Shown: positions 725 to 46,140 of the stretch, one piece after another
Position numbering within the stretch: position 1 is the stretch's first letter
Layout: every line of letters starts with the position of its first letter
Assembly (NCBI RefSeq): GCF_008124835.1
Contig: NZ_VNHW01000006.1
Coordinates: 62,001 to 126,000, forward strand
Direction: 5' to 3'
Origin: Blastococcus xanthinilyticus
Lineage (GTDB): Bacteria; Actinomycetota; Actinomycetes; Mycobacteriales; Geodermatophilaceae
Length of the DNA: 64,000 bases
Translations under genes and position numbers: made by a program
Notes under the pieces: model-generated
Databases searched by the model: none
What the model was told of the DNA's origin: nothing
The model's input: only the letters and a program-made list of their open reading frames with translations

Positions 725-1165
725 TCAGACCCGGCCGCAGACCCGCGGGCCGTCCTCGTTGATCACGGCGAACCGATCGGTCTGGCCGTCGTCCCAGCGC
801 ACGGTGACCTGCTGCACCCGGGCGCCGGCGGTCTCGTCGTCGGTCACGCCGGTCACCTCCGGCTCGCCCGGGCGCAGGAAGAGCTCCACCATCTCCTCCT
901 CGGCGACCTGCTCCCGCTCGTCCTCGCACAGCAGCTGGTGGGCGGTCTCGGTGTCGCCGGCGGCGAGCGCGGCGAAGAAGACCCCGGTCACCTCGGTCGC
1001 CTGCTCGCCCGGCGAGCCCTTGACCACCGGCAGCAGGACGGCGAAGAGCACCGCGGCGAGCACGGTGCCGGCGAGGATCAGGACCATCAGCTTGCCGCTG
1101 CGGCGGGGCGCGCCGGTGTGCAGCGGCGCCGGGTCGTCGTCGTAGAGGAAGGGGCCGGTGCTCAT
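725..1165 (-). CDS. Small membrane-anchored protein with extracytoplasmic domain
   Basis: 146 residues. A short cytoplasmic N-terminus rich in D and P is followed by one membrane segment (about 26-48) and a roughly 95-residue outer domain. The layout GVFFAALAAGDTETAHQLLC resembles DUF4878/lumazine-binding-like (NTF2-fold) domains of actinobacterial membrane proteins. Cys80 and Cys143 could form a disulfide. The ATG start (MSTGPF) is chosen because upstream in-frame sequence belongs to the dus gene region. Its stop lies 22 bases downstream of nothing else on this strand, and dusB ends 22 bases upstream of its start, so the two may be cotranscribed. Function unknown. Confidence 0.7.
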   Translation of the reverse strand: MSTGPFLYDDDPAPLHTGAPRRSGKLMVLILAGTVLAAVLFAVLLPVVKGSPGEQATEVTGVFFAALAAGDTETAHQLLCEDEREQVAEEEMVELFLRPGEPEVTGVTDDETAGARVQQVTVRWDDGQTDRFAVINEDGPRVCGRV

Positions 1166-1187
1166 GGCTCGACTCCGGTGGGGACGG

Positions 1188-2348
1188 TCATCCGCCGCTC
1201 GTCTCCAGTTCAGCGCCCACGGGGGGCCGGGGGTCGTCGCGGTCGGTGAGCCAGCCCTCGGGCAGGGCGACCGGCCGCCGGGCGGTGGTGCGCCCGCGCG
1301 GCGCCCCGAGGACGGCGGTCGGGTACGGCTGGTCGGGGATGCCGGCGAGCAGCTCGGCGAGCTCGTCGAGGCCGCTGACCATCGCCAGCGCCCGCCGCAC
1401 GTCACCGCCCACCGAGAAGCCCTTGAGGTACCAGGCCACGTGCTTGCGGAAGTCGCTGCAGCCGTGCCGCTCGCCGTGCTCGGCGGCCAGCAGCGTGGCG
1501 TGCCGGTGCATGATCGCGGCGACCTCGCCAAAGGTGGGCAGCGCCCGGCGGCTCTCGCCGGCGAACGCGGCGGCGAGGTCACCGAACAGCCAGGGGCGGC
1601 CCAGGCAGCCGCGGCCGATGACCACGCCCGCGCAACCGGTCTCGGCGACCATGCGCAGCGCGTCGTCGGCCTCCCAGATGTCGCCGTTGCCGAGCACCGG
1701 GATGTCGACCGCCTCCACGAGCCGGGCGATCGGCGCCCAGTCGGCGGAGCCGCTGTAGAGCTGGTCGGCGGTGCGGCCGTGCAGCGTGATCGCCGCGGCG
1801 CCCTCGTCCTGGGCGATCCGGCCGGCGTCGAGGTAGGTGACGTGGTCGGCGTCGATGCCGATGCGGGTCTTGATGGTGACCGGGACGTCGCGAGCCGCCC
1901 GCACCGCCGCGCGGACGATGTTCTGCAGCAGCACGCGGCGCCACGGCAGCGCGGAGCCGCCGCCCTTGCGGGTCACCTTGGGCACCGGGCAGCCGAAGTT
2001 CAGGTCGATGTGCGCCGGGCGGGTGCCGGCGACGCCCTCGTCGACGAGCATCTCCACCGCGCGGCCGACCGTCACCGGGTCGACGCCGTAGAGCTGCACG
2101 GAGAAGGCGTCCTTCTCGTCCGCGGTGGCCCGGATCATGCGCAGCGTCTTGTCGTTGCGCTCGACCAGCGCCCGCGTGGTGATCATCTCGCAGACGTACA
2201 GCCCGGCCCCGAACTCCCGGCACAGCGTGCGGAACGCCGGGTTGGTGATGCCGGCCATGGGCGCGAGCACGACGGCGGGGTCGACGGCGAGCGCCCCGAG
2301 CCGCAGCGGCGGGAGCGCCGTCGTCGTCGGCTCGAGCGTGCTGGTCAC
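1188..2348 (-). CDS. dusB: tRNA-dihydrouridine synthase, DusB/NifR3 family
   Basis: FMN-dependent reduction of uridine to dihydrouridine in tRNA D-loops. The 386-residue protein has the TIM-barrel N-terminus LAPMAGITNPAFR (about 28-40), the catalytic-cysteine motif NFGCPVPKVTRKGGGSAL with Cys120, and a C-terminal helical tRNA-binding domain. The GNGDIW and IGRG phosphate-binding loops of the FMN site are present. Length is normal. It faces the cupin gene divergently across a 118-base spacer that must hold both promoters. Confidence 0.93.
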   Translation of the reverse strand: MTSTLEPTTTALPPLRLGALAVDPAVVLAPMAGITNPAFRTLCREFGAGLYVCEMITTRALVERNDKTLRMIRATADEKDAFSVQLYGVDPVTVGRAVEMLVDEGVAGTRPAHIDLNFGCPVPKVTRKGGGSALPWRRVLLQNIVRAAVRAARDVPVTIKTRIGIDADHVTYLDAGRIAQDEGAAAITLHGRTADQLYSGSADWAPIARLVEAVDIPVLGNGDIWEADDALRMVAETGCAGVVIGRGCLGRPWLFGDLAAAFAGESRRALPTFGEVAAIMHRHATLLAAEHGERHGCSDFRKHVAWYLKGFSVGGDVRRALAMVSGLDELAELLAGIPDQPYPTAVLGAPRGRTTARRPVALPEGWLTDRDDPRPPVGAELETSGG

Positions 2349-2466
2349 GGCACCCAGGGTAGGCGGCGACCCGGGTCACTCCGGGCCCGGCGCGGCTCCG
2401 GACGCCCCGCGGTGCCCGCCCGGTGGATACGGTCCCTCCCCGGCTGCCGTCGCGAAGGGTCCGCCG

Positions 2467-2982
2467 ATGTCCTTCTTCCCGCCGCCCGAGACCTACCCGC
2501 CGGACCGGCACGCCGGGCCGCCGAAGGCGTCGGCGCGCTGGCGGCGCGCCGGGTCGCCGCCGGACCTGGTCACCGGCCGGGGATCGTGCGAGTACCTCGC
2601 CACGGGCGCCGGCACCCGCGGCGACTACGGGCTCTACCGCTGGAACATGGGCCCCGAGCCCAGCGGCCCGGTCCCGCACGTGCACCGGACCATCTCCGAG
2701 TCGTTCTTCGTCCTCGACGGTGTGGTGCGGATCCACGACGGGCGGACGTGGTCCGAGGCCCGGCCCGGCGACTTCGCCTTCGTACCGGAGGGCGGGATCC
2801 ACGGCTTCCGCAACGAATCCGGCGAACCCGCCTCGATGCTCATCCTCTTCTCCCCCGGTGCACCGCGGGAGCGCTACTTCGAGGGCCTGGCACACCTGGC
2901 CCACGGCGGGCAGCGGCCTACCGACGAGGAGATGGCGGAGTTCTACGCGCGGCACGACACCTGGTGGGTCGACGACGTCTGA
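2467..2982 (+). CDS. Cupin-domain protein
   Basis: 171 residues forming a single cupin barrel. Motif 1 has His71, His73 and Glu78 (HVHRTISESFFVLDG) and motif 2 is PGDFAFVPEGGIHGF with His112, the usual metal-binding set. The ATG was chosen because homology to the barrel begins soon after; longer in-frame extensions run antisense into dus. Substrate cannot be deduced. Small cupins of this type are often dioxygenases, isomerases or simple binding proteins. It converges on glyS and shares a strong terminator with it. Confidence 0.8.
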   Translation: MSFFPPPETYPPDRHAGPPKASARWRRAGSPPDLVTGRGSCEYLATGAGTRGDYGLYRWNMGPEPSGPVPHVHRTISESFFVLDGVVRIHDGRTWSEARPGDFAFVPEGGIHGFRNESGEPASMLILFSPGAPRERYFEGLAHLAHGGQRPTDEEMAEFYARHDTWWVDDV

Positions 2983-3127
2983 CCCCGGGCCGCGAGGGCG
3001 TCGGACGCGACGGTGCGCGCCGTCGGCTCAGGACGCGTCCGGGGCCACCGATGCCCCGTGGTCCGCTGTTCCGGAGCGCCAGATGTCCGGTGGAGGGACA
3101 ACGCCGGCCGATCGGCCCCCGCATGCA

Positions 3128-3164
3128 CCGACGGCCGGCTCCCGTTGCGGGAGCCGGCCGTCGG
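3128..3164. terminator. Bidirectional terminator hairpin between cupin gene and glyS
   Basis: A perfect 17-base-pair stem (arms 3128-3144 and 3148-3164) closes a TTG loop. It sits in the 199-base space between two convergent genes, so it can end both transcripts. No U-tract follows, as is usual for high-GC actinobacteria. Confidence 0.85.
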
Positions 3165-3181
3165 TGAACGCGGAGCGGCGG

Positions 3182-4579
3182 TCAGCAGCCGGGCAGACGG
3201 GCTCCGAGGTAGGACTCGACCTGGTCGAGGGCGACCCGCTCCTGGCTCATCGAGTCGCGCTCGCGGATGGTCACCGCCTGGTCCTCGAGGGTGTCGAAGT
3301 CGACGGTGATGCAGAACGGCGTCCCGACCTCGTCCTGGCGGCGGTACCGGCGGCCGATGGCGCCGGCGTCGTCGAAGTCGACGTTCCAGTTCCGCCGCAG
3401 CGCGGCCGCGAGGTCCTTGGCCTTGGGCGAGAGGTCGGCGTTGCGCGACAGCGGCAGGACGGCGGCCTTCACCGGCGCCAGCCGCGGGTCGAGCTTCAGG
3501 ACGGTGCGGACGTCGACCCCGCCCTTGGCGTTGGGCGCCTCGTCCTCGGTGTAGGCCTCGACGAGGAAGGCCATCAGCGAGCGGGTGAGGCCGGCCGCCG
3601 GCTCGATCACGTACGGCGTCCAGCGGGTGTTGCTCGCCTGGTCGAAGTAGGACAGGTCGGTGCCCGAGTGCTCCGAGTGCGTCGACAGGTCGAAGTCGGT
3701 GCGGTTGGCGATCCCCTCGAGCTCACCCCACTCCGAGCCCTGGAAGCCGAAGCGGTACTCGATGTCGACGGTGCGCTTCGAGTAGTGCGACAGCTTCTCC
3801 TTCGCGTGCTCGTAGTGCCGCAGGTTCTCCGGGTCGATGCCCAGGTCGGTGTACCAGCGGGTGCGCTCGTCGATCCAGTACTGGTGCCACTCCTCGTCGG
3901 TGCCGGGCTCGACGAAGAACTCCATCTCCATCTGCTCGAACTCACGGGTCCGGAAGATGAAGTTGCCCGGCGTGATCTCGTTGCGGAACGACTTGCCGAT
4001 CTGGCCGATGCCGAACGGCGGCTTCTTGCGCGCGGCACCCATGACGTTGGCGAAGTTGACGAAGATGCCCTGGGCGGTCTCGGGGCGCAGGTAGTGCAGG
4101 CCGGACTCGTCCTCGATCGGGCCGAGGTAGGTCTTGAGCATCATGTTGAAGTCGCGCGGCTCGGTCCACGCGCCCTTGGTGCCGCAGTTCGGGCAGGTGA
4201 TGTCGGCCAGGCCGTTCTCCGGCAGCCGGCCCTTCTTCTCCTCGTAGGCCTCTTCCAGGTGGTCGGCCCGGAACCGCTTGTGGCAGCTCTGGCACTCGGT
4301 CAGCGGGTCGGTGAAGACACCGACGTGGCCCGACGCCACCCAGGTCTGCCGCGGCAGGATCACCGAGGAGTCCAGGCCGACGATGTCGTCCCGGCTCTGG
4401 ACGACGGTGCGCCACCACTGCTTCTTGATGTTCTCCTTGAGCTCGACGCCCAGCGGCCCGTAGTCCCAGGCGGAGCGGGTGCCGCCGTAGATCTCGCCGG
4501 ACGGGAAGACGAATCCCCGTCGCTTGCAGAGGTTGACGACCTTGTCGAGGCGGGCGGGGTCGTGCTTGGCGGTGCTCAC
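3182..4579 (-). CDS. glyS: Glycyl-tRNA synthetase (alpha2 type)
   Basis: Charges tRNA-Gly; class II, single-chain dimeric type, 465 residues. The N-terminal [19 protein letters not shown] motif, two Cys pairs (CQSCHKRF and CPNCGTKG) of the insertion domain, the motif 2 loop [17 protein letters not shown], motif 3 (GLTRSLMAF) and a C-terminal anticodon-binding domain are all visible. I prefer the GTG start at 4579 because GGAG lies nine bases upstream. An in-frame ATG at 4594 adds five residues and has no ribosome site. A TAACGT -10 box lies upstream. Confidence 0.93.
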
Positions 4580-4623
4580 GGAGAGGAACTCCATCCGGCT
4601 GGCGGTCGGCGGGTGACCCCTAG

Positions 4624-4629
4624 ACGTTA
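4624..4629 (-). promoter_or_regulatory. Candidate -10 box of glyS
   Basis: TAACGT read on the minus strand fits the actinobacterial TANNNT -10 pattern and lies 44 bases before the preferred GTG of glyS. No clear -35 is visible. Confidence 0.4.
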
Positions 4630-4733
4630 GCCGCCGCCTGCTGCGCTCCCGGCCGACGGTCGGCCGCGGACCCCGCCGGTCCCGGTGCCCGGACACGCCG
4701 CGCGCGCATGCGCGTCGCACGGGCCCAACACCC

Positions 4734-4739
4734 TAGGGT
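4734..4739 (+). promoter_or_regulatory. Candidate -10 box, leaderless arrangement
   Basis: TAGGGT ends eight bases before the ATG at 4748, the spacing expected if transcription starts at or next to the start codon. No ribosome-binding site is present. Confidence 0.5.
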
Positions 4740-4747
4740 CCGCGCTC

Positions 4748-5338
4748 ATGCCGCTCTTCTCGCGCCGCGCCGCGCCGTCCTCGGACGTACCCGTGCTGCC
4801 CTATGATTCGCGGTCGGCCGAAGGACTGGCTGCGCGCTGGGTCCGGTGGGTCGCCTCCGCCGGCCCCCTCAAGAACCCGCTGGACGACGCCACGGGCGAG
4901 CACGCCGCGGTCAACCAGCCCGACGACGTCTGGTTCCTCGCCGGCTCCTACGGCAAGCGGGTGCTGCGCCGTTGCTTCGTGCCGGCCGGCCGAGAGCTGT
5001 TCCTGCCGGCGTTCAACATGTGGGAGTACCCCTCGACCGGGCCGGCGCCCGTCGTCGAGGACGCATGGGGATCGCTCACGGTCGACGGCAGGCAGTGGGA
5101 GCTTGCGACGATCGGGACCCCCGAGCCGTTCGTCGTCGCCGGTGCCCGCCTGAACGGCGTGACGTCGCGCAAGACCCCGACCCCGACGACCGTGTGGGGC
5201 CTGTGGGCGCTGATCGGCCCGCTGTCACCGGGGCCGCACGAGGTGCACGCGGCGGGCGGCGACGGCCACGGCTTCGAGGTCGATGTGACCTACCAGATCA
5301 CCGTGGGCGGCGCCGACCCCGGCTACCGCACGCCCTAG
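4748..5338 (+). CDS. Conserved hypothetical protein
   Basis: 196 residues, soluble, with no signal peptide or membrane segment. The only composition feature is many Trp/Pro/Gly (WELATIGTPEPFVVAGARLNG, VWGLWALIGPLSPGPHEV region), which suggests a beta-rich fold. I do not recognise the family. The ATG at 4748 is preferred over an earlier in-frame start at 4685 because a TAGGGT -10 box would place transcription start at the ATG. Ends in TAG. Confidence 0.65.
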   Translation: MPLFSRRAAPSSDVPVLPYDSRSAEGLAARWVRWVASAGPLKNPLDDATGEHAAVNQPDDVWFLAGSYGKRVLRRCFVPAGRELFLPAFNMWEYPSTGPAPVVEDAWGSLTVDGRQWELATIGTPEPFVVAGARLNGVTSRKTPTPTTVWGLWALIGPLSPGPHEVHAAGGDGHGFEVDVTYQITVGGADPGYRTP

Positions 5339-5383
5339 CCCCGACCGGGCCGGGCCTCGACCCGGGCTCAGCCGCTCCGCGGT

Positions 5384-5770
5384 CTACGCCTCCCGGCCCG
5401 CGGGGGCCCACTCGTCGGCGTCCCCGGCGAACTGCTGCGCCAGCAGCATCCGGACCTCGGCGTGCCGCACCAGGAAGGCCCGCTCGTCCAGCCGCTTGCG
5501 CCGCAGCCAGCCGGTGACCTCGTCGTTGCACTTGCTGGCGTTGCAGGAGCCGCAGGCAGGGACGATGTTCTCCAGCGTGTACCGGCCGCCGCGGGACAGG
5601 GCCAGCACGCAGTCCCGCTGCAACGGGACGCCGGTCGCGCCGCAGTAGGCGCAGCCGTTCCAGGCCTTCTGCAGCAGGGCCCACTGCCCAGGGCTCAGGT
5701 CGTGCTCGACGGCGTCCATGCGGCGCTTGCGTCGCCGGGCGTACCGGGCGGTGCAGGAGCGGCTGACCAC
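5384..5770 (-). CDS. HNH-endonuclease-like protein
   Basis: 128 residues with a basic N-terminus (RYARRRKRRMD), then CAYCG and a distal CGSCN pair that would bind the structural zinc, around the beta-beta-alpha core LSRGGRYTLENIVPACGSCN. In canonical HNH proteins an Asp-His pair precedes this core; here the pair reads DC (residues QRDCVLALSRGG), so the first catalytic His is Cys. Asn of TLEN is present. The protein could be a non-catalytic or altered member. It stands alone between a hypothetical gene and a TauE exporter. Stop is TAG. Confidence 0.72.
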   Translation of the reverse strand: MVSRSCTARYARRRKRRMDAVEHDLSPGQWALLQKAWNGCAYCGATGVPLQRDCVLALSRGGRYTLENIVPACGSCNASKCNDEVTGWLRRKRLDERAFLVRHAEVRMLLAQQFAGDADEWAPAGREA

Positions 5771-5893
5771 CGGCCGACCGTAGGCCCCGGGGCGCTCCGG
5801 CGCGGGAGCGACGGGCGGGACCGCCGGTTCCGGGTGCGGCGCACCTGCGCCCGCGGCGCACCGGCTGGCTGGCCCTCGGCAGGTGACCGGGGC

Positions 5894-6646
5894 TCAGCCG
5901 CCGGTGACCGCCCGGATCACCGTGGTGGCGCCGGTGACCAGCACCAGGCCCAGCGTCAGGCGGCCGAAGAGCGCCGCCGGCACCCGTCCGCCCAGCGCCG
6001 TGCCGAGCGCGTTCCCGATCAGCGCCCCCGGCAGCCAGCAGGCCAGCAACCAGCCCACGCGGTCCGCGGCCAGGTCGCCGGTGAGCCCGATGAGCAGCAG
6101 TGCGAGGGCGTTGCAGGCTACGAAGTAGACCGCCAGATCGGCGACGAACTGCCGGGGAACCGCCTGCTGCCGGGACAGCAGGATGACCGGCGGCGGCCCG
6201 TTCAGCGACGTCGTGATGCCCAGGAACCCGCCGAGCATCCCGGCCCCGCCGGCCGGCAGCCGTGAGCGCGGTGCCGCTCCGGCCGGCCGGGAAGCAGGCG
6301 GCCGGAGGAGCAGGTAGCCGGCCACGAGCACCGCCACCCCGCCGGCGGTCATCTCCAGCACCGGCCCGTCGACCACCGTCCGGGTGGCCGCACCGAGCAG
6401 CAGCCCCGGGACGCAGCCGACCACGAGGGCGGTGGCGCGCCGCCGGTCGACGGCGTCCCGGAACTTGACGGCGACCACCAGCCGGGTGACCAGGCCGATC
6501 GTGAGGTTGACGACCACCACCTCGGCCAGCGGGAACCCGGCGAGCAGCAGCAGCGGCGTGCACACCAGCGCGAAGCCGAAACCGGTGATGCCGCCCAGGA
6601 CGGCCGCGGCGCAGACCACGACGGCGCCCACGACGAGCAGCAGCAC
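5894..6646 (-). CDS. TauE/SafE family anion exporter (sulfite exporter-like)
   Basis: 250 residues with about eight hydrophobic segments. The paired family signatures are GGITGFGFALVCTPLLLL near the N-terminus and GGFLGITTSLNGPPPVILL in the second half, as in TauE/SafE permeases (4-TM duplicated). Members export sulfite, sulfoacetate or related anions; the substrate is not evident from neighbours. The gene precedes the monooxygenase gene's stop by 49 bases. Confidence 0.82.
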   Translation of the reverse strand: MLLLVVGAVVVCAAAVLGGITGFGFALVCTPLLLLAGFPLAEVVVVNLTIGLVTRLVVAVKFRDAVDRRRATALVVGCVPGLLLGAATRTVVDGPVLEMTAGGVAVLVAGYLLLRPPASRPAGAAPRSRLPAGGAGMLGGFLGITTSLNGPPPVILLSRQQAVPRQFVADLAVYFVACNALALLLIGLTGDLAADRVGWLLACWLPGALIGNALGTALGGRVPAALFGRLTLGLVLVTGATTVIRAVTGG

Positions 6647-7732: not shown

Positions 7733-8513
7733 TGAGCAGGCTCGCTTCCCGGCGCGGGGCCGACTCGGAGCGGTCGACCAGCGGCAGCGAGCGCAGCCCG
7801 CGCTCCAGGTGCCACTGCAGCATCGCGGCCACCAGCCCGCTGCCCTCCCGGCGGTTGATGCCCTGGCTCGCCTCGGCCCGCGCCCAGTCGCCGGTGAGCA
7901 GGGAGTCGAGCAGCTCGATGGTGACCGGGCTCGGCATCGCCGACCCGGTGGGCCGGCACGCGGGGCAGACGGTGCCGCCGGCCGGGACCGAGAAGTGCCG
8001 GTGCGGTCCGGCCTCACCGCAGCGTGCGCACTCCGCCAGCGCCGGCTCCCAGCCGGCCACCGACATGGCCCGCAGCAGGAAGGCGTCGAGCACCAGCGGC
8101 GCCGGGTGCGACTTCTCCCCCAGCGCCCGCAGCGCGCCGACCACCAGCAGGAACATCCGGAGCGATGGCTCCTTCTCCTCGGCGGTGAGCCGGTCGGCGG
8201 TCTCCAGGACGGCGGTGCCGGCGGTGTAGGCGGGGTAGTCGGCGACGACCTCCTGGCCGTAGGCGCGGATCGACTCCGCCTGGCTGACGATGTCCAGGTT
8301 GCGGCCGGTGTAGAGCTGCAGGTCGACGTGCGTGAACGGCTCCAGTCGGGCGCCGAACTTGCTCTTGGTGCGGCGCACGCCCTTGGCCACCGCGCGCACC
8401 TTCCCGGTGCGCCGGGTGAGCACGGTGATGATCCGGTCGGCCTCACCGAGCTTCTGCGTGCGCAGGACGATGCCCTCGTCCCGGTAGAGGGCCTTCGGGG
8501 TGTGCGCGCTCAC
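7722..8513 (-). CDS. recO: DNA repair protein RecO
   Basis: Recombination mediator of the RecFOR pathway that loads RecA on SSB-coated DNA. 263 residues: an OB-fold N-terminus ([19 protein letters not shown], about 10-28), a helical middle, and a zinc-finger with CARCG and CPAC pairs in the second half. It is separated from era by a single base and overlaps uppS, the conserved actinobacterial order era-recO-uppS. Confidence 0.93.
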
Positions 8514-8514
8514 C

Positions 8515-9432
8515 TCAGTAGCCCAGCCGGTTCAGCTTCTTCGGGTCGTCCTGCCACTCGCCCAGCACGGTGACGTGCAGCTCCAGGTGCACCCGGGCGC
8601 CGAGCAGCGTCTCCATGCCCATCCGCGCCTCGCTGCCGATCGCCTTGATGATCGACCCGCCCTTGCCCAGCAGCATCGGCTTCTGGCTGGGGCGCTCGCA
8701 GTGCAGCAGCGCGTGCACCTCCACCAGCTCGGCGCCGGGGCGCTTCGGGTCGGGGCGCCGGTTCAGCTCCTCCACGGTGACGGCCAGGGAGTGCGGCACC
8801 TCCTGGCGCACCTTCTCCAGCGCCGCCTCGCGGACCAGCTCGGCGATCTGCCGCTCGACGTCCTCGTCGGTGGTCTGCTCCTGCGGGTACAGCGGCGGGC
8901 CCTCGGGCAGCAGCCCCACCAGCAGGTCCTCCAGCAGCTCGACCTGGTCACCCCGGACGGCGCTGACCGGCACCAGCTCGGCGGCCTCGACCAGCTGGCT
9001 GGCGGCGACGAGCTGCTCGGCGACCTGCTTCTTCGCCGCGGCGTCGGTCTTGGTCACGACCACGACAACCGGCGCCTTCACCTCGGCGAGCTGGCGGGCG
9101 ATGAACTTGTCACCGGTGCCCACCGGCTGGTCGGCCGGGATGCAGAACACGATCACGTCGACGTCGGAGAGCGTGTCGCGGACGACGTCGTTGAGCCGCT
9201 TGCCCAGCAGGCTCTTGGGCTTGTGCAGCCCCGGGGTGTCGACGAGGACGATCTGCCCGCCGGCCCGGTGGACGACGCCGCGGATGGCGTGCCGGGTGGT
9301 CTGCGGGCGGTTGCTGACGATGCCGACCTTCTCGCCGACCATCGCGTTGGTCAGCGTGGTCTTCCCGGCGTTGGGGCGGCCCACCAGGGCGACGAAACCG
9401 CTGCGGTGCGGCGTCTGCTCAGGGCTGCTCAC
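8515..9432 (-). CDS. era: GTPase Era
   Basis: Ribosome-associated GTPase for 30S assembly that binds the 3' end of 16S rRNA. 305 residues: G1 GRPNAGKT (18-25), G3 DTPG (65-68), G4 TKTD (127-130), and a C-terminal KH domain containing MLLGKGGSIIKAIGSEAR. Length is normal. It begins 126 bases downstream of a small minus-strand gene and leads the era-recO-uppS-ABM unit. Confidence 0.95.
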   Translation of the reverse strand: MSSPEQTPHRSGFVALVGRPNAGKTTLTNAMVGEKVGIVSNRPQTTRHAIRGVVHRAGGQIVLVDTPGLHKPKSLLGKRLNDVVRDTLSDVDVIVFCIPADQPVGTGDKFIARQLAEVKAPVVVVVTKTDAAAKKQVAEQLVAASQLVEAAELVPVSAVRGDQVELLEDLLVGLLPEGPPLYPQEQTTDEDVERQIAELVREAALEKVRQEVPHSLAVTVEELNRRPDPKRPGAELVEVHALLHCERPSQKPMLLGKGGSIIKAIGSEARMGMETLLGARVHLELHVTVLGEWQDDPKKLNRLGY

Positions 9433-37746: not shown

Positions 37747-39492
37747 CTATCCGAGGCGGCGGGTGTTGTCCGGCAACCGCGTGGTGACGCCGCGGGCGTC
37801 CAGCCACTCCATCAGCGGGACGGCGACCCGGCGGCTGGTCCCCCACGCCTGGCGCGCCTGGCTCAGGGTGAACGGCTGCGGGAGATCCACCAGCCGGGCA
37901 CGGGCGACGGCGTCGATGCCTGGGGCGAGGTAGACCCCCTCCCCCACGCGGACCAGCTGCCCGCTGCGGGCGGCGGCGGCGAGCTCCCGGGCGCCCAGCC
38001 CGGCGGCCACCAGCTCCGGCGCCTCAGGGGCGGCGAAGGGGTCGGCCGCCAGGCGCGCGCGGATCGCGTCCACCGCCCGCTGCACCGCCGGCGGCAGGTC
38101 GGCCGCGCCGTCGACGACCCGCCCCTCGCGCAGCGCCAGCGGCGCCCGCACGAGCGCGGGCACCAGGTCGGCGTCGGGCAGGTCGAGGGCGCGGCGCACC
38201 ACCTCGGCCGGCGGTCCCGGCTCCAGCGGGCGGAGACGCCGGTAGCGGCCGACCACGTCGGGCACCCGCCCGGCCAGCTCGTCGGCCAGCCCGGCGGTGA
38301 GCAGCCACGGCCCGTGCACGGTGGCTTCGGCGGGCACCGGCCATCCCATGGCCGCGAAGTCCGCGGCCCGCACGATGCGCCGGCGGGCCAGGTCGGCGGC
38401 CGCGCCGTCGGCTCCACCCGGCTGGGCGGCGAGGTCGGCGGCCCGCTGCCGGGCGGCGCCGCGGCGGTGCAGCTCGGGCGGGTCGACGTCGCGCACGTCG
38501 GCGCCGAGCACCCGCCGGGCGCCGGGGTCGCGCAGCAGCAGCCGGTCCCCGACACGCAGCGGCAGCGGGCGGTCCAGCCGCAGCCGCACCGCCGCGCCGT
38601 CGAGCGGGCGCAGCCGGGCACCGACCGTCGCCGAGCCCACGTGCACCACCGGCTCGGCGGGCAGCCGGTCCACGGGGTCCCCGGTCAGGGTCACGTCGAC
38701 GACCTCGGTGCGGCGGAACGCCGACGGCGTGAGCAGGGCGTCGCCGCGGGAGATCTCCTCCACCGCGATGCCGCGGAGGTTCAGCGCGACCCGGGCGGTC
38801 GCCGCCGCCCGGTCGACCGCCGCGCCGAGCGACTGCACGCCCCGCACGGTCACCTCCCGGTCGCCGAGCAGGAACCGGTCGCCGGCCGCGACGGTGCCGG
38901 CGGCGAGCGTGCCGGTGACCACGGTGCCCGCGCCGCGGATGGTGAACGCCCGATCGATCCACAGCCGGACCGCGGCCGCCGGGTCCGGCGCGGGCAGGCC
39001 GCCCAGCAGCGCCTCCAGCGCCGTGGTCAGCTCCGGCAGCCCGGCGCCGGTCACCGCGCTCACCGCGACGCCGGGCACCTGGCCCATGGAGGTGGCGGCG
39101 AGCCGCTCCCGCACGTCGGCCAGCACGGGCACCGGGTCGGCGAGGTCGGCCTTGGTCACCGCGAGCAGCGCGTGCCGCACGCCGAGGGCGTCGAGGACGG
39201 CGACGTGCTCGGCGGTCTGCGCCGACCAGCCGTCGTCGGCCGCGACCACCACCAGCGCGGCCGGGACCGATCCGACCCCGGCCAGCATGTTGCCCACGAA
39301 CCGCTCGTGGCCGGGGACGTCGACCACGGCCAGCCGGCGGCCCGAGGGCAGCGTCGTCCAGGCGAAGCCCAGGTCGATGGTGAGCCCGCGGCGGCGCTCC
39401 TCCGCCCAGCGGTCGGGCTCCATGCCGGTGAGCGCGCGCACCAGGGCCGACTTGCCGTGGTCGACGTGGCCGGCGGTGGCGATGACGTCCAT
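37747..39492 (-). CDS. selB: Selenocysteine-specific elongation factor SelB
   Basis: Carries Sec-tRNA-Sec to the ribosome at SECIS-marked recoded codons. 581 residues: G1 GHVDHGKS (8-15), G2/G3 RRRGLTIDLGFAW and DVPGHERFVGNML, G4 TKAD, domain II/III, then the C-terminal winged-helix repeats that bind SECIS RNA. ATG at 39492 gives the family-typical MDVIATAGH N-terminus. GTGs at 39507 (overlapping the selA stop as GTGA) and 39513 are alternatives. Because its tRNA reads UAG, this SelB should act at UAG. Confidence 0.94.
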   Translation of the reverse strand: MDVIATAGHVDHGKSALVRALTGMEPDRWAEERRRGLTIDLGFAWTTLPSGRRLAVVDVPGHERFVGNMLAGVGSVPAALVVVAADDGWSAQTAEHVAVLDALGVRHALLAVTKADLADPVPVLADVRERLAATSMGQVPGVAVSAVTGAGLPELTTALEALLGGLPAPDPAAAVRLWIDRAFTIRGAGTVVTGTLAAGTVAAGDRFLLGDREVTVRGVQSLGAAVDRAAATARVALNLRGIAVEEISRGDALLTPSAFRRTEVVDVTLTGDPVDRLPAEPVVHVGSATVGARLRPLDGAAVRLRLDRPLPLRVGDRLLLRDPGARRVLGADVRDVDPPELHRRGAARQRAADLAAQPGGADGAAADLARRRIVRAADFAAMGWPVPAEATVHGPWLLTAGLADELAGRVPDVVGRYRRLRPLEPGPPAEVVRRALDLPDADLVPALVRAPLALREGRVVDGAADLPPAVQRAVDAIRARLAADPFAAPEAPELVAAGLGARELAAAARSGQLVRVGEGVYLAPGIDAVARARLVDLPQPFTLSQARQAWGTSRRVAVPLMEWLDARGVTTRLPDNTRRLG

Positions 39493-39503
39493 CCCGGCAG
39501 TGC

Positions 39504-40829
39504 TCACGTCCACCGGCGGGCCACCTCCAGGACCGCCGTCACCAGGGCGTCGTCGGCGGCCGGCGGGACGCTGCGCAGGTTCAGCAGCGTCCGGCCGTCC
39601 TCGACGTACCCGACGACGGGGTGCCGGCCGCGCCGCAGCGGCTCGGCGAAGGACGCCGCGAGCGCGACCGCGGCGCCGGGCAGCGGGTGCTCGGGGGCTC
39701 CTCCCCCGCCGACCCGGGAGTCGGCGTCCACCGCGACCGCCTCGACCCCGGCGTCGCCCAGCCGGCCGGCCAGCGCACGGGCGCGGGCGCGGAGCCCGTC
39801 CACGTCGGCCGCGAGCAGCTCCCGCACCGGCGGGACGGGGCCGCGCAACGTCGCCTCCAGCGCCGCGAGGGTGGTCTTGTCCACCCGCAGCGCCCGGTAG
39901 AGGGGATGCCGGCGCAACCGCTGCACCAGCTCCGCCCGGCCGAGCACCAGCCCGGCCTGCGGGCCGCCCAGCAGCTTGTCGCCGCTGGCCAGCACCAGGT
40001 CCGCGCCGGCGGCCAGGGTGGTCTGCAGATCCGGCTCGTCGGGCAGCAGCGGGGAGGGGCGCAACAGCCCGGAGCCGACGTCGGCGACCAGCGGGATCCC
40101 GTCGAGGGCGCCGGCCAGCTCGGCCACCTCGACCACCCGGGTGAAGCCGCGCACGACGAAGTTCGACGGGTGCACCTTGAGCACCGCGCCGGTGTCCGGG
40201 CCGAGGGCGTCGCGGTAGTCGGCCAGCGTGACCCGGTTGGTGGTGCCGACCTCGCGCAGCCGGGCGCCGGTGGTCTGCAGCAGCTCGGGGATGCGGAAGC
40301 CGTCGCCGATCTCCACCAGCTCGCCGCGGGCCAGCACCAGCTCCCGCCCCTGGCCCAGCGCCGTCGCGACCAGCGCCAGCGCCGCGGCGCAGTTGTTCAC
40401 CACGAGCGCGGCCTCCGCGGCCGGGACCGCCTCCAGCAGCGCCGCGATCGCCGCCTCGCCCCGTGGTCCGCGCCGGCCGGTGCCCAGGTCCAGCTCCACG
40501 TCGGTGGTCCCGCTGGCCGCGACCACCGCCGCCACCGCCGCGGGCGAGAGCGGCGCGCGGCCGAGGTTGGTGTGCACCAGCACGCCGGTGGCGTTCAGCA
40601 CCGGGCGCAGGCTCGCCGCCGTCGCCGGTAGCTCGTCGACCACGGCGTCGACGGCCGAGGCCGGCGGCACCTCGCCGTCCCGCACCCGCTGCTGCACCCG
40701 GCCGATGGCGGCCTTCACCAGGTCGCGGCCCAGCCGGTCACCGGCCGCGGCCAGCCGCGGGTCGGCGAGCAGGGTGTCGGTGCGCGGCACCTGCCGGCGG
40801 GGGTCGGTGCCGTGCGGGTCGTCGGTCAT
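39504..40829 (-). CDS. selA: L-seryl-tRNA(Sec) selenium transferase
   Basis: PLP enzyme converting Ser-tRNA-Sec to Sec-tRNA-Sec with selenophosphate. 441 residues; NATGVLVHTNLGRAPLS, ELDLGTGRRGPRGE, and the PLP lysine Lys285 in SGDKLLGGPQAG are all canonical. ATG at 40829. A TACGCT box at 40838-40843 ends eight bases before the start, so selA may have its own leaderless promoter as well as read-through from the tRNA gene 28 bases upstream. Confidence 0.95.
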   Translation of the reverse strand: MTDDPHGTDPRRQVPRTDTLLADPRLAAAGDRLGRDLVKAAIGRVQQRVRDGEVPPASAVDAVVDELPATAASLRPVLNATGVLVHTNLGRAPLSPAAVAAVVAASGTTDVELDLGTGRRGPRGEAAIAALLEAVPAAEAALVVNNCAAALALVATALGQGRELVLARGELVEIGDGFRIPELLQTTGARLREVGTTNRVTLADYRDALGPDTGAVLKVHPSNFVVRGFTRVVEVAELAGALDGIPLVADVGSGLLRPSPLLPDEPDLQTTLAAGADLVLASGDKLLGGPQAGLVLGRAELVQRLRRHPLYRALRVDKTTLAALEATLRGPVPPVRELLAADVDGLRARARALAGRLGDAGVEAVAVDADSRVGGGGAPEHPLPGAAVALAASFAEPLRRGRHPVVGYVEDGRTLLNLRSVPPAADDALVTAVLEVARRWT

Positions 40830-40857: not shown

Positions 40858-40953
40858 TGGCGGAGGCGGACGGGAATCGAACCCGCCTGACCGAGGTACT
40901 CGGCCACGTCGGCTTTAGAGGCCGCGGGGGCCACCAGACACCCTGACGCCTCC
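40858..40953 (-). tRNA. selC: tRNA-Sec with anticodon CUA (reads UAG)
   Basis: 96 bases including an encoded CCA (40858-40860). Acceptor arms GGAGGCG/CGCCTCC; short D-loop TGGT on a long D-stem; long variable arm with an eight-pair stem (40899-40906 with 40888-40895, one G-U) and TAC loop; T-arm with GGTTCGATTCC; discriminator G. These are tRNA-Sec hallmarks. The anticodon stem CGGC/GCCG closes the loop CTCTAAA (40920-40914). Position 33 is T, so the anticodon at 40918-40916 is CTA, not the usual TCA. It sits beside selA, which confirms identity. Confidence 0.95.
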
Positions 40954-41314: not shown

Positions 41315-42322
41315 GTGACGACCGCTCCCGCGAGGATCCGGCTGACCCAGTACGCCCACGGCGGGGGCTGCGCCTGCAAGATCCCGCCCGGCGAGCTGGA
41401 GGCCGTCGTCGCCGGGCTGACCGCCCGGGGCCCGGTCGACCCGGCGGCCGAGCTGGTGGTCGGCCTGGACGACGGGGACGACGCCGCCGTCGTGCGGATT
41501 GCCGGCGGCCAGGGACTGGTGCTCACCACCGACTTCTTCACCCCGGTGGTCGACGACGCGTACACGTTCGGCCGGATCGCCGCGGCGAACGCGCTCTCCG
41601 ACGTCTACGCCATGGGTGGCACCCCGGTCGTGGCGGTGAACCTGCTCGGCTGGCCGCGCGACGTGCTGCCCGCCGAGCTTGCCGCCGAGGTGCTGCGCGG
41701 CGGGCTCGAGATGGCCCACGAGGCCGGGTGCCACGTGGGCGGCGGCCACTCGATCGACGACCCCGAGCCCAAGTACGGGATGGCGGTGACCGGGGTGGTC
41801 GACGTCGACCGGATCATCACCAACTCCGGCGCGGTCGCCGGCACCCCGCTGACCCTCACCAAGCCGCTCGGCGTGGGCGTGCTCAACAGCCGGATGAAGG
41901 CCACCGGCGAGGTGTCGGAGGAGGCGGTCGCCGCGATGACGACGCTGAACCGGGATGCCGGGCAGGCCGCGGTCGCGGCCGGCATCCGCGCCGGCACGGA
42001 CGTCACCGGCTTCGGCCTGCTCGGGCACCTCTACAAGATGGCGCGGGCCAGCGGGGTGACCGCCGTCGTGGACGCCGCCGCCGTCCCCTACCTGGCGGGC
42101 GCCCGGGCGGCGCTGGCCGACGGCTTCGTCTCCGGCGGCACCCGGCGCAACCTCGACTGGGTGCGCCCGCACACCGACCTCACGGCCGTGACCGAGGACG
42201 AGGCGCTCCTGCTGGCCGACGCGCAGACCTCCGGCGGGTTGCTCCTCGGCGGGGAGATCCCCGGCTCGCCGGTCATCGGGGAGTTCGTGCCACGGCAGGA
42301 GCACGTGGTCGTCGTCCGCTGA
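41315..42322 (+). CDS. selD: Selenide, water dikinase (selenophosphate synthetase)
   Basis: Makes selenophosphate from selenide and ATP for SelA. 335 residues from GTG. The N-terminal active site GGGCACK has Cys19 (TGC) and Lys22; position 19 is Sec in some organisms but is plain Cys here. TTDFFTPVVDD and ANALSDVYAMGG are AIRS-family metal/ATP sites. Divergent from selC-selA-selB. A slightly odd feature is HGGGCAC instead of the common SGAGCGC. Confidence 0.94.
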   Translation: MTTAPARIRLTQYAHGGGCACKIPPGELEAVVAGLTARGPVDPAAELVVGLDDGDDAAVVRIAGGQGLVLTTDFFTPVVDDAYTFGRIAAANALSDVYAMGGTPVVAVNLLGWPRDVLPAELAAEVLRGGLEMAHEAGCHVGGGHSIDDPEPKYGMAVTGVVDVDRIITNSGAVAGTPLTLTKPLGVGVLNSRMKATGEVSEEAVAAMTTLNRDAGQAAVAAGIRAGTDVTGFGLLGHLYKMARASGVTAVVDAAAVPYLAGARAALADGFVSGGTRRNLDWVRPHTDLTAVTEDEALLLADAQTSGGLLLGGEIPGSPVIGEFVPRQEHVVVVR

Positions 42323-45728: not shown

Positions 45729-46043
45729 TCAATGCACGATCTTGAGCCCGACCACGCAGCCGACGATCCCGGCGAGCAGCAGCAGCCGTACGAGCGAGAC
45801 CGGTTCCGCGCCGGTCACCATGGCGTAGACGACCGTCAGCACCGCGCCGATGCCCACCCACACCGCATAGGCCGTGCCCAGCGGGAGCTCGCGCATCGCG
45901 AAGGCGAGCCCGCCCATGCTCGCGGCCAGCGCGACGGCGAAGAGCACCGTCGGCCAGAGCCGGGTGAAGGCCTCCGAGCGGTCCAGCGCCGCGGCCCAGA
46001 CCGCCTCCAGCACCCCGGACAGGACCAGCACCAACCACGACAT
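45729..46043 (-). CDS. SMR-family guanidinium exporter (Gdx/SugE type)
   Basis: 104 residues, four membrane helices, conserved Glu13 in LSGVLEAVWAAALDRSEAF, then MRELPLGTAYAVWVGIGAVL. Dual-topology proton antiporter of the small multidrug resistance family. The guanidine-III riboswitch directly in front of it identifies guanidinium as the likely substrate. AGAGGAG lies six bases before the ATG. Confidence 0.92.
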   Translation of the reverse strand: MSWLVLVLSGVLEAVWAAALDRSEAFTRLWPTVLFAVALAASMGGLAFAMRELPLGTAYAVWVGIGAVLTVVYAMVTGAEPVSLVRLLLLAGIVGCVVGLKIVH

Positions 46044-46056
46044 CGCGGGCTCCTCT

Positions 46057-46099
46057 GGCGCCGTCTTGTCGCACACCGGGTACGGCACCGCTCGTCCGG
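46057..46099 (-). ncRNA. Guanidine-III (ykkC-III) riboswitch
   Basis: 43 bases on the minus strand. In order it contains CCGGACGAG, TGCCGTACCCGG and GACAAGACGGCGCC, which match the class III consensus (pseudoknot of two hairpins) almost base for base. It ends seven bases before the AGAGGAG ribosome site of the SMR gene, consistent with translational control by guanidine. Confidence 0.92.
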
Positions 46100-46140
46100 G
46101 AGCCGTGGTCGCGGCTCGAGCCGAGCTTAGCCGTCTCTCC

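Follow-up and report, generated by a model that had tools for sequence, protein, structure and literature searches.

A selenocysteine tRNA with anticodon CUA and matching TAG codons in a genome of the Geodermatophilaceae

We analysed a stretch of 64,000 nucleotides of DNA (the window) together with the genome to which it belongs, and this genome almost certainly uses UAG as a codon for selenocysteine (Sec): as judged from sequence, the anticodon of its tRNA-Sec, presumably changed from UCA, is CUA, and it matches TAG Sec codons in the same genome. The earlier note had read a tRNA-Sec with anticodon CUA in the window and had taken UAG to be the Sec codon; this reading is now supported by TAG at the Sec sites of four genes of the same genome. 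Annotation in which TAG is a stop shortens such selenoprotein genes. As, moreover, ARAGORN labels the tRNA as one for pyrrolysine (Pyl), the selenoproteins of the family are missed by searches based on UGA.

UAG-programmed Sec was reportedly described in Geodermatophilus and Blastococcus by Mukai et al. in Angew. Chem. in 2016, as the earlier note stated. In Santesmasses et al. (2017, PMC5330540), where Mukai 2016 is summarised for the Geodermatophilaceae, three genomes of the family are given a tRNA-Sec(CUA) along with formate dehydrogenase (FDH), UGSC and AhpC genes carrying TAG, and Blastococcus saxobsidens DD2 is given an AhpC gene with TAG. The UAG-Sec system of the family is already in print. 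The genome of the window is another genome with the same set, and what we add is scale (112 genomes mapped), the relatives with UCA, a tree of SelA and a strain with two tRNA-Sec. Elsewhere, according to a further source (PMC10778597, referring to Mukai 2016), Sec has been recoded to UAA and to ten sense codons, one of which is UGU (normally Cys), so used in Aeromonas salmonicida; there too the anticodon and the Sec codon changed together, the codons being different from UAG. In our survey there is apparently one codon swap, with UCA relatives to be set against CUA relatives and one strain seemingly holding both tRNAs, which makes it directly testable in what way the identity of a recoded codon shifts.

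The selenocysteine tRNA and the neighbouring sel genes

ARAGORN finds a single tRNA in the window, with anticodon cta and the label tRNA-Pyl, at the very coordinates and on the strand given by the earlier note (selC in Table 1). The covariance model of tRNA-Sec (Rfam RF01852) matches it at 40862-40953 of the minus strand with 64.2 bits (E 9e-11) over positions 1-91 of the 91 of the model, which is above the gathering score of 47 bits over the whole model. This match bears out the identity that had been proposed from the long variable arm, the encoded CCA and the position beside selA and selB; sequence and alignment both display the long variable arm and G73 followed by CCA. The loop is CTCTAAA, in the register read before, and the anticodon bases are those of 40916-40918 on the plus strand: the usual anticodon UCA is absent from this gene, and CUA is present instead as a variant feature. 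A read error at these three bases is very unlikely, because CUA recurs in 101 of the 108 genomes of the family which have a tRNA-Sec. When the gene is compared with the UCA tRNA of a relative (genome G068, locus L025), 6 of the 96 bases differ, namely two anticodon bases, both bases of the pair closing the loop (C31-G39 where G068 has U-A) and two bases of the D arm. The tRNA body, the sel neighbourhood and a hairpin after the Sec codon are like those of the canonical UGA system (tRNA-Sec with UCA, SelA, SelB, SelD and bSECIS), unlike which the window has the anticodon CUA, C31-G39 for U-A, and UAG as the predicted Sec codon.

We also searched the whole assembly (4.6 Mb in 38 contigs) with RF01852 at E<=0.001 and obtained six matches. 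Besides selC, they are typed by ARAGORN as Ser (three), Tyr and Leu, among which a Ser tRNA with anticodon tga reaches 51.5 bits, above the cut-off of 47. By this search and this typing no second tRNA-Sec was found, and in particular none with UCA, which would have spoken against UAG as the Sec codon.

The start of selA lies 28 bases past the 3' end of selC, and selB is next in order. The gene on the other side is presumably a selenophosphate synthetase gene; we call it selD-like from its AIRS domains and its position. The stop codon of selB (37747-37749, minus strand) is TAG, the same codon that the neighbouring tRNA-Sec would read.

Among 16 chosen genes of the window, four, selB included, have TAG as their terminal stop. 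Since ordinary genes still end in TAG, the insertion of Sec must depend on context, and UAG would not be reassigned throughout the genome. Elsewhere in the window, a Guanidine-III riboswitch (Rfam RF01763, 62.5 bits) is found at 46055-46120 of the minus strand, directly upstream of a small frame (about 45729-46050, minus strand) which, we presume, resembles a transporter of the SMR type.

Table 1. Positions of the features described in the window and in Geodermatophilus sp. LHW52908 (genome G058)
Feature	Position	Strand	Evidence or remark
selC, tRNA-Sec, anticodon CUA	40858..40953	minus	ARAGORN, Rfam, sequence
selA, L-seryl-tRNA(Sec) selenium transferase	39504..40829	minus	Pfam PF03841 324.1 bits, PF12390 42.5 bits
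selB, Sec-specific elongation factor	37747..39513	minus	ORF; Pfam GTP_EFTU, Beta-barrel_SelB, SelB-wing_3 on 37747-39495
selD-like gene, Cys form (HGGGCACKIPP)	41315..42322	plus	Pfam AIRS 96.3 bits, AIRS_C 41.5 bits; ORF
Second tRNA-Sec of G058, anticodon UCA	C17:1173-1263		81.8 bits
CMD/AhpD-like frame beside the UCA tRNA-Sec, 190 codons	L109:1579-2148		one TGA, CFY-U-MESH
Low-GC island with the UCA tRNA-Sec and the AhpD-like gene	L109:1000-6200 (G058:C17)

TAG codons at selenocysteine sites and the hairpins behind them

The search for selenoprotein genes with an in-frame TAG that the earlier note had proposed yields four in the genome of the window, each with TAG at the catalytic Sec site. 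With U standing for TAG, they are FDH (NQARI-U-HSATV, codon 191 of 1100), two genes of the UGSC family (D-U-GSC) and an AhpC-like gene (GDW-U-PYC). The other matches of this genome, seven to AhpC-TSA and eight to the FDH model, have no stop. Selenoproteins with TGA had been named as evidence to the contrary; no TGA was found at the Sec site in the FDH, UGSC and AhpC-TSA matches, and this result holds for these three families, to which the search was confined. By eye, the second UGSC frame (L321, G000:C1:590250-590657) runs upstream into thioredoxin reductase-like sequence, which suggests a fusion.

A SECIS hairpin after the TAG had also been expected. At all four sites we find a stem of 7-8 bp that is perfect when G-U pairs are allowed, with a loop of 3 bases; counted from the first base of the TAG codon, the stem starts at a distance of 14-17 bases. 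By the same stem rule, at least 7 bp are reached at 5.0% of the codons in 14 window genes (232 of 4670). In the fetched UGSC loci of relatives, those with TAG have an 8 bp stem in 21 cases out of 22 and a 6 bp stem in the remaining one, these loci being close relatives and not independent trials; with TGC at the site, 2 of 8 loci reach 7 bp. The folding energy of the 59-60 nt from the four TAGs is not unusual when compared with shuffles (z of -0.95, 0.79, -0.55 and 0.60). Thus the expected hairpins were found as stems but not in the energies, and the argument for a SECIS-like element is one of stem position and perfect stems only.

In the system that we propose, SerRS would charge tRNA-Sec(CUA) with serine, SelA would turn the Ser on the tRNA into Sec using selenophosphate, and SelB would bring the Sec-tRNA to those UAG codons which have a SECIS-like hairpin close behind them. 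There the insertion of Sec would compete with release factor 1, not with release factor 2, and UAGs elsewhere would remain ordinary stops. The Sec codons would have moved along with the tRNA, FDH, the two UGSC genes and the AhpC-like gene having received TAG at the catalytic position. No computed result separates Ser from Sec at these positions, and one may imagine that tRNA-Sec(CUA) reads UAG with Ser (or Cys) as the main product, so that the genes would encode working Ser or Cys proteins instead of selenoproteins. We consider this very improbable, as selA is intact, as a selD-like gene is adjacent, and as a related SelA serves UCA relatives which use TGA at the Sec site of FDH.

Distribution in the family and origin of the anticodon

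In a survey of 112 Geodermatophilaceae genomes, with tRNA-Sec called at E<=1e-10, the tRNA is present in 108, and its anticodon could be read in each of them: it is CUA in 101 genomes and UCA alone in 7 (genera g5 and g7 with three genomes each, g6 with one). One of the 101 (G058) has UCA in addition to CUA, and another genome (G036) has two copies with CUA. At E<=1e-250, FDH gives 119 matches in 100 genomes; 110 of them span the Sec residue, each with at least one TAG, and the nine remaining start after residue 200. These TAGs are seen across eight genera, at 63-91% identity to the query (own gene excepted), and wherever the Sec codon was read directly it was TAG (30 of 30 fetched loci and 7 of 7 further spanning loci). 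No FDH match at this threshold was found in 12 of the 112 genomes, including all nine of genera g5-g7. Some matches seemed to hold an extra stop, either TGA besides TAG (G009, G023, G028, G107) or a second TAG (G030, G060); upon re-alignment each of the six loci has one TAG, at residue 191, the TGA of the G028 locus (L324) being at residue 1094, near the C-terminal end. In both FDH copies of G079 the alignment breaks up around the site into two parts whose frames differ, and these copies were left uncounted. As for UGSC, 72 of the 94 matches have TAG and 22 have no stop, among them one in each of the UCA genomes G066 and G072.

It is true that every TAG breaks a reading frame, as would be the case if selC were a remnant of a tRNA-Sec, decayed or turned amber suppressor, and the TAG-bearing genes were pseudogenes. 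This explanation is highly unlikely and even less probable than the one by Ser or Cys: the FDH of the window's genome is open on both sides of its TAG, over 1100 codons, TAG is found in 110 out of 110 site-spanning FDH matches in spite of their divergence, the stops in the UGSC matches are always TAG and never TGA, and the anticodon is identical in 101 genomes. Finally, that selC might be a pyrrolysine tRNA and UAG a Pyl codon can be dismissed, for although ARAGORN prints tRNA-Pyl for selC and likewise for all 102 CUA tRNA-Sec of the family, Rfam recognises a tRNA-Sec over the full model length, selC has a long variable arm and adjoins selA and selB, TAG sits at Sec/Cys catalytic positions (FDH, UGSC, AhpC-like), and the C-terminal domain of PylS, which the same search detected in Methanosarcina acetivorans as a positive control, is missing from 112 of 112 family genomes, own included (E<=1e-10), which led us to reject the label.

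The FDH of genus g7 (G071-G074) is of a different type; its Sec site, SCNRT-U-HAPSV, has TGA in all four fetched loci (L061, L072, L331, L332), and the tRNA-Sec of three of its four genomes has UCA, none being found in G071. This FDH is not the orthologue of that of the window's genome (tblastn gives no match at 1e-20), so that the comparison between TAG and TGA in FDH is one between gene types.

UCA was also found in 29 of 29 tRNA-Sec read in other families of the order, a biased sample since they are the best-scoring of 154 other-family genomes with a match. We then consider the tree of SelA, whose 53 rows were chosen from 133 loci with SelA plus the window. All 31 rows with CUA fall into a single clade (100/100), the state changing once on the tree, and four UCA rows of Geodermatophilaceae (g6, g7) neighbour this clade (94/87); the root is drawn for display only, as the data do not root the tree. 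Among the rows, the SelA nearest to that of the window belongs to Blastococcus capsensis (87%), which, among other evidence, leads us to assign the window to Blastococcus and makes its genome a member of the Geodermatophilaceae. The tree fits a single switch from UCA to CUA. It can be supposed that the swap arose once within the family, from a UCA tRNA resembling that of the early-branching relatives.

Outside the survey, an exact pattern was scanned for in the genomes of named species; as it fixes the T arm, tRNAs of other shapes may be missed. Of the 102 stretches obtained, 88 are tRNA-Sec(CUA) of this type, and 85 of these are labelled Geodermatophilaceae. The other three are a Jatrophihabitans MAG, a stretch without family label and one under an unverified Bacillus label; the latter (L200, in a record titled UNVERIFIED_ORG: Bacillus sp. 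AZ43) is a tRNA-Sec locus of the Geodermatophilaceae type. ARAGORN did not confirm the 14 further stretches as this type, and Rfam gave no tRNA-Sec match for the 11 of them that were run (L270, L275 and L278 being outside the run); L278, from a Modestobacter MAG, may be a true case. An Alphaproteobacteria MAG has a CUA tRNA with a long variable arm (L205:4865-4955, minus strand) which Rfam matches as a general tRNA with 51.4 bits, not as tRNA-Sec, and which is possibly a natural amber-reading tRNA. Two loci recorded under the same title, Blastococcus endophyticus CPCC 205247 (L277 and L290), each hold a tRNA-Sec(CUA) and selA, their DNA being 85-88% identical; perhaps the sel locus is duplicated, or two records share one title.

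A strain that seems to have two selenocysteine tRNAs

The genome with both anticodons, G058, is that of Geodermatophilus sp. LHW52908. Its resident tRNA-Sec has CUA, with selA and selB alongside, and its FDH and UGSC are of the TAG type. We see an even chance that this strain acquired an island with a UCA tRNA-Sec and that UAG and UGA both stand for Sec in one cytoplasm, the resident SelA and SelB serving both. If this were true, a mobile cassette of selC and a selenoprotein gene would carry its codon meaning along, and this would account both for the passage of selenoprotein genes across a code barrier and for the swap of a Sec codon via an ambiguous stage with two tRNAs. In the literature searched, where most subscription papers were out of reach, we found no such genome described as using two Sec codes, which is weak evidence of absence; as far as this search reaches, the strain is apparently unreported.

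The second tRNA-Sec lies on contig C17, whose bases 1001-6000 have 59-65% GC, against 69-78% in the remainder of the 40 kb that were read. Transposase-like genes are present at 271-834 and 8231-9184. A tblastn search of the 40 kb at E<=1e-5 yields neither selA nor selB, so that the UCA tRNA would depend on the SelA and SelB of the resident system. The contig may be foreign or mixed DNA. However, two of the 25 other genomes of the genus share a gene of its 37-39 kb region, with identities of 82% and 80% (the 23 others giving no match at E<=1e-100), and C17 is thus probably Geodermatophilus DNA.

The TGA of the AhpD-like frame is at the last position of a CxxU motif (CFY-U). Behind it there is a stem of 7 bp, the folding energy not being unusual there either (z of -0.04). 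A search of 394 genomes of the class at E<=1e-20 gives two homologues, both free of internal stops and with Cys in place of this TGA, and a search of plasmids with the AhpD-like protein gives 333 records, all below 60% identity. Selenoproteins of the CMD/AhpD group with CxxU are a known type (PMC13188914).
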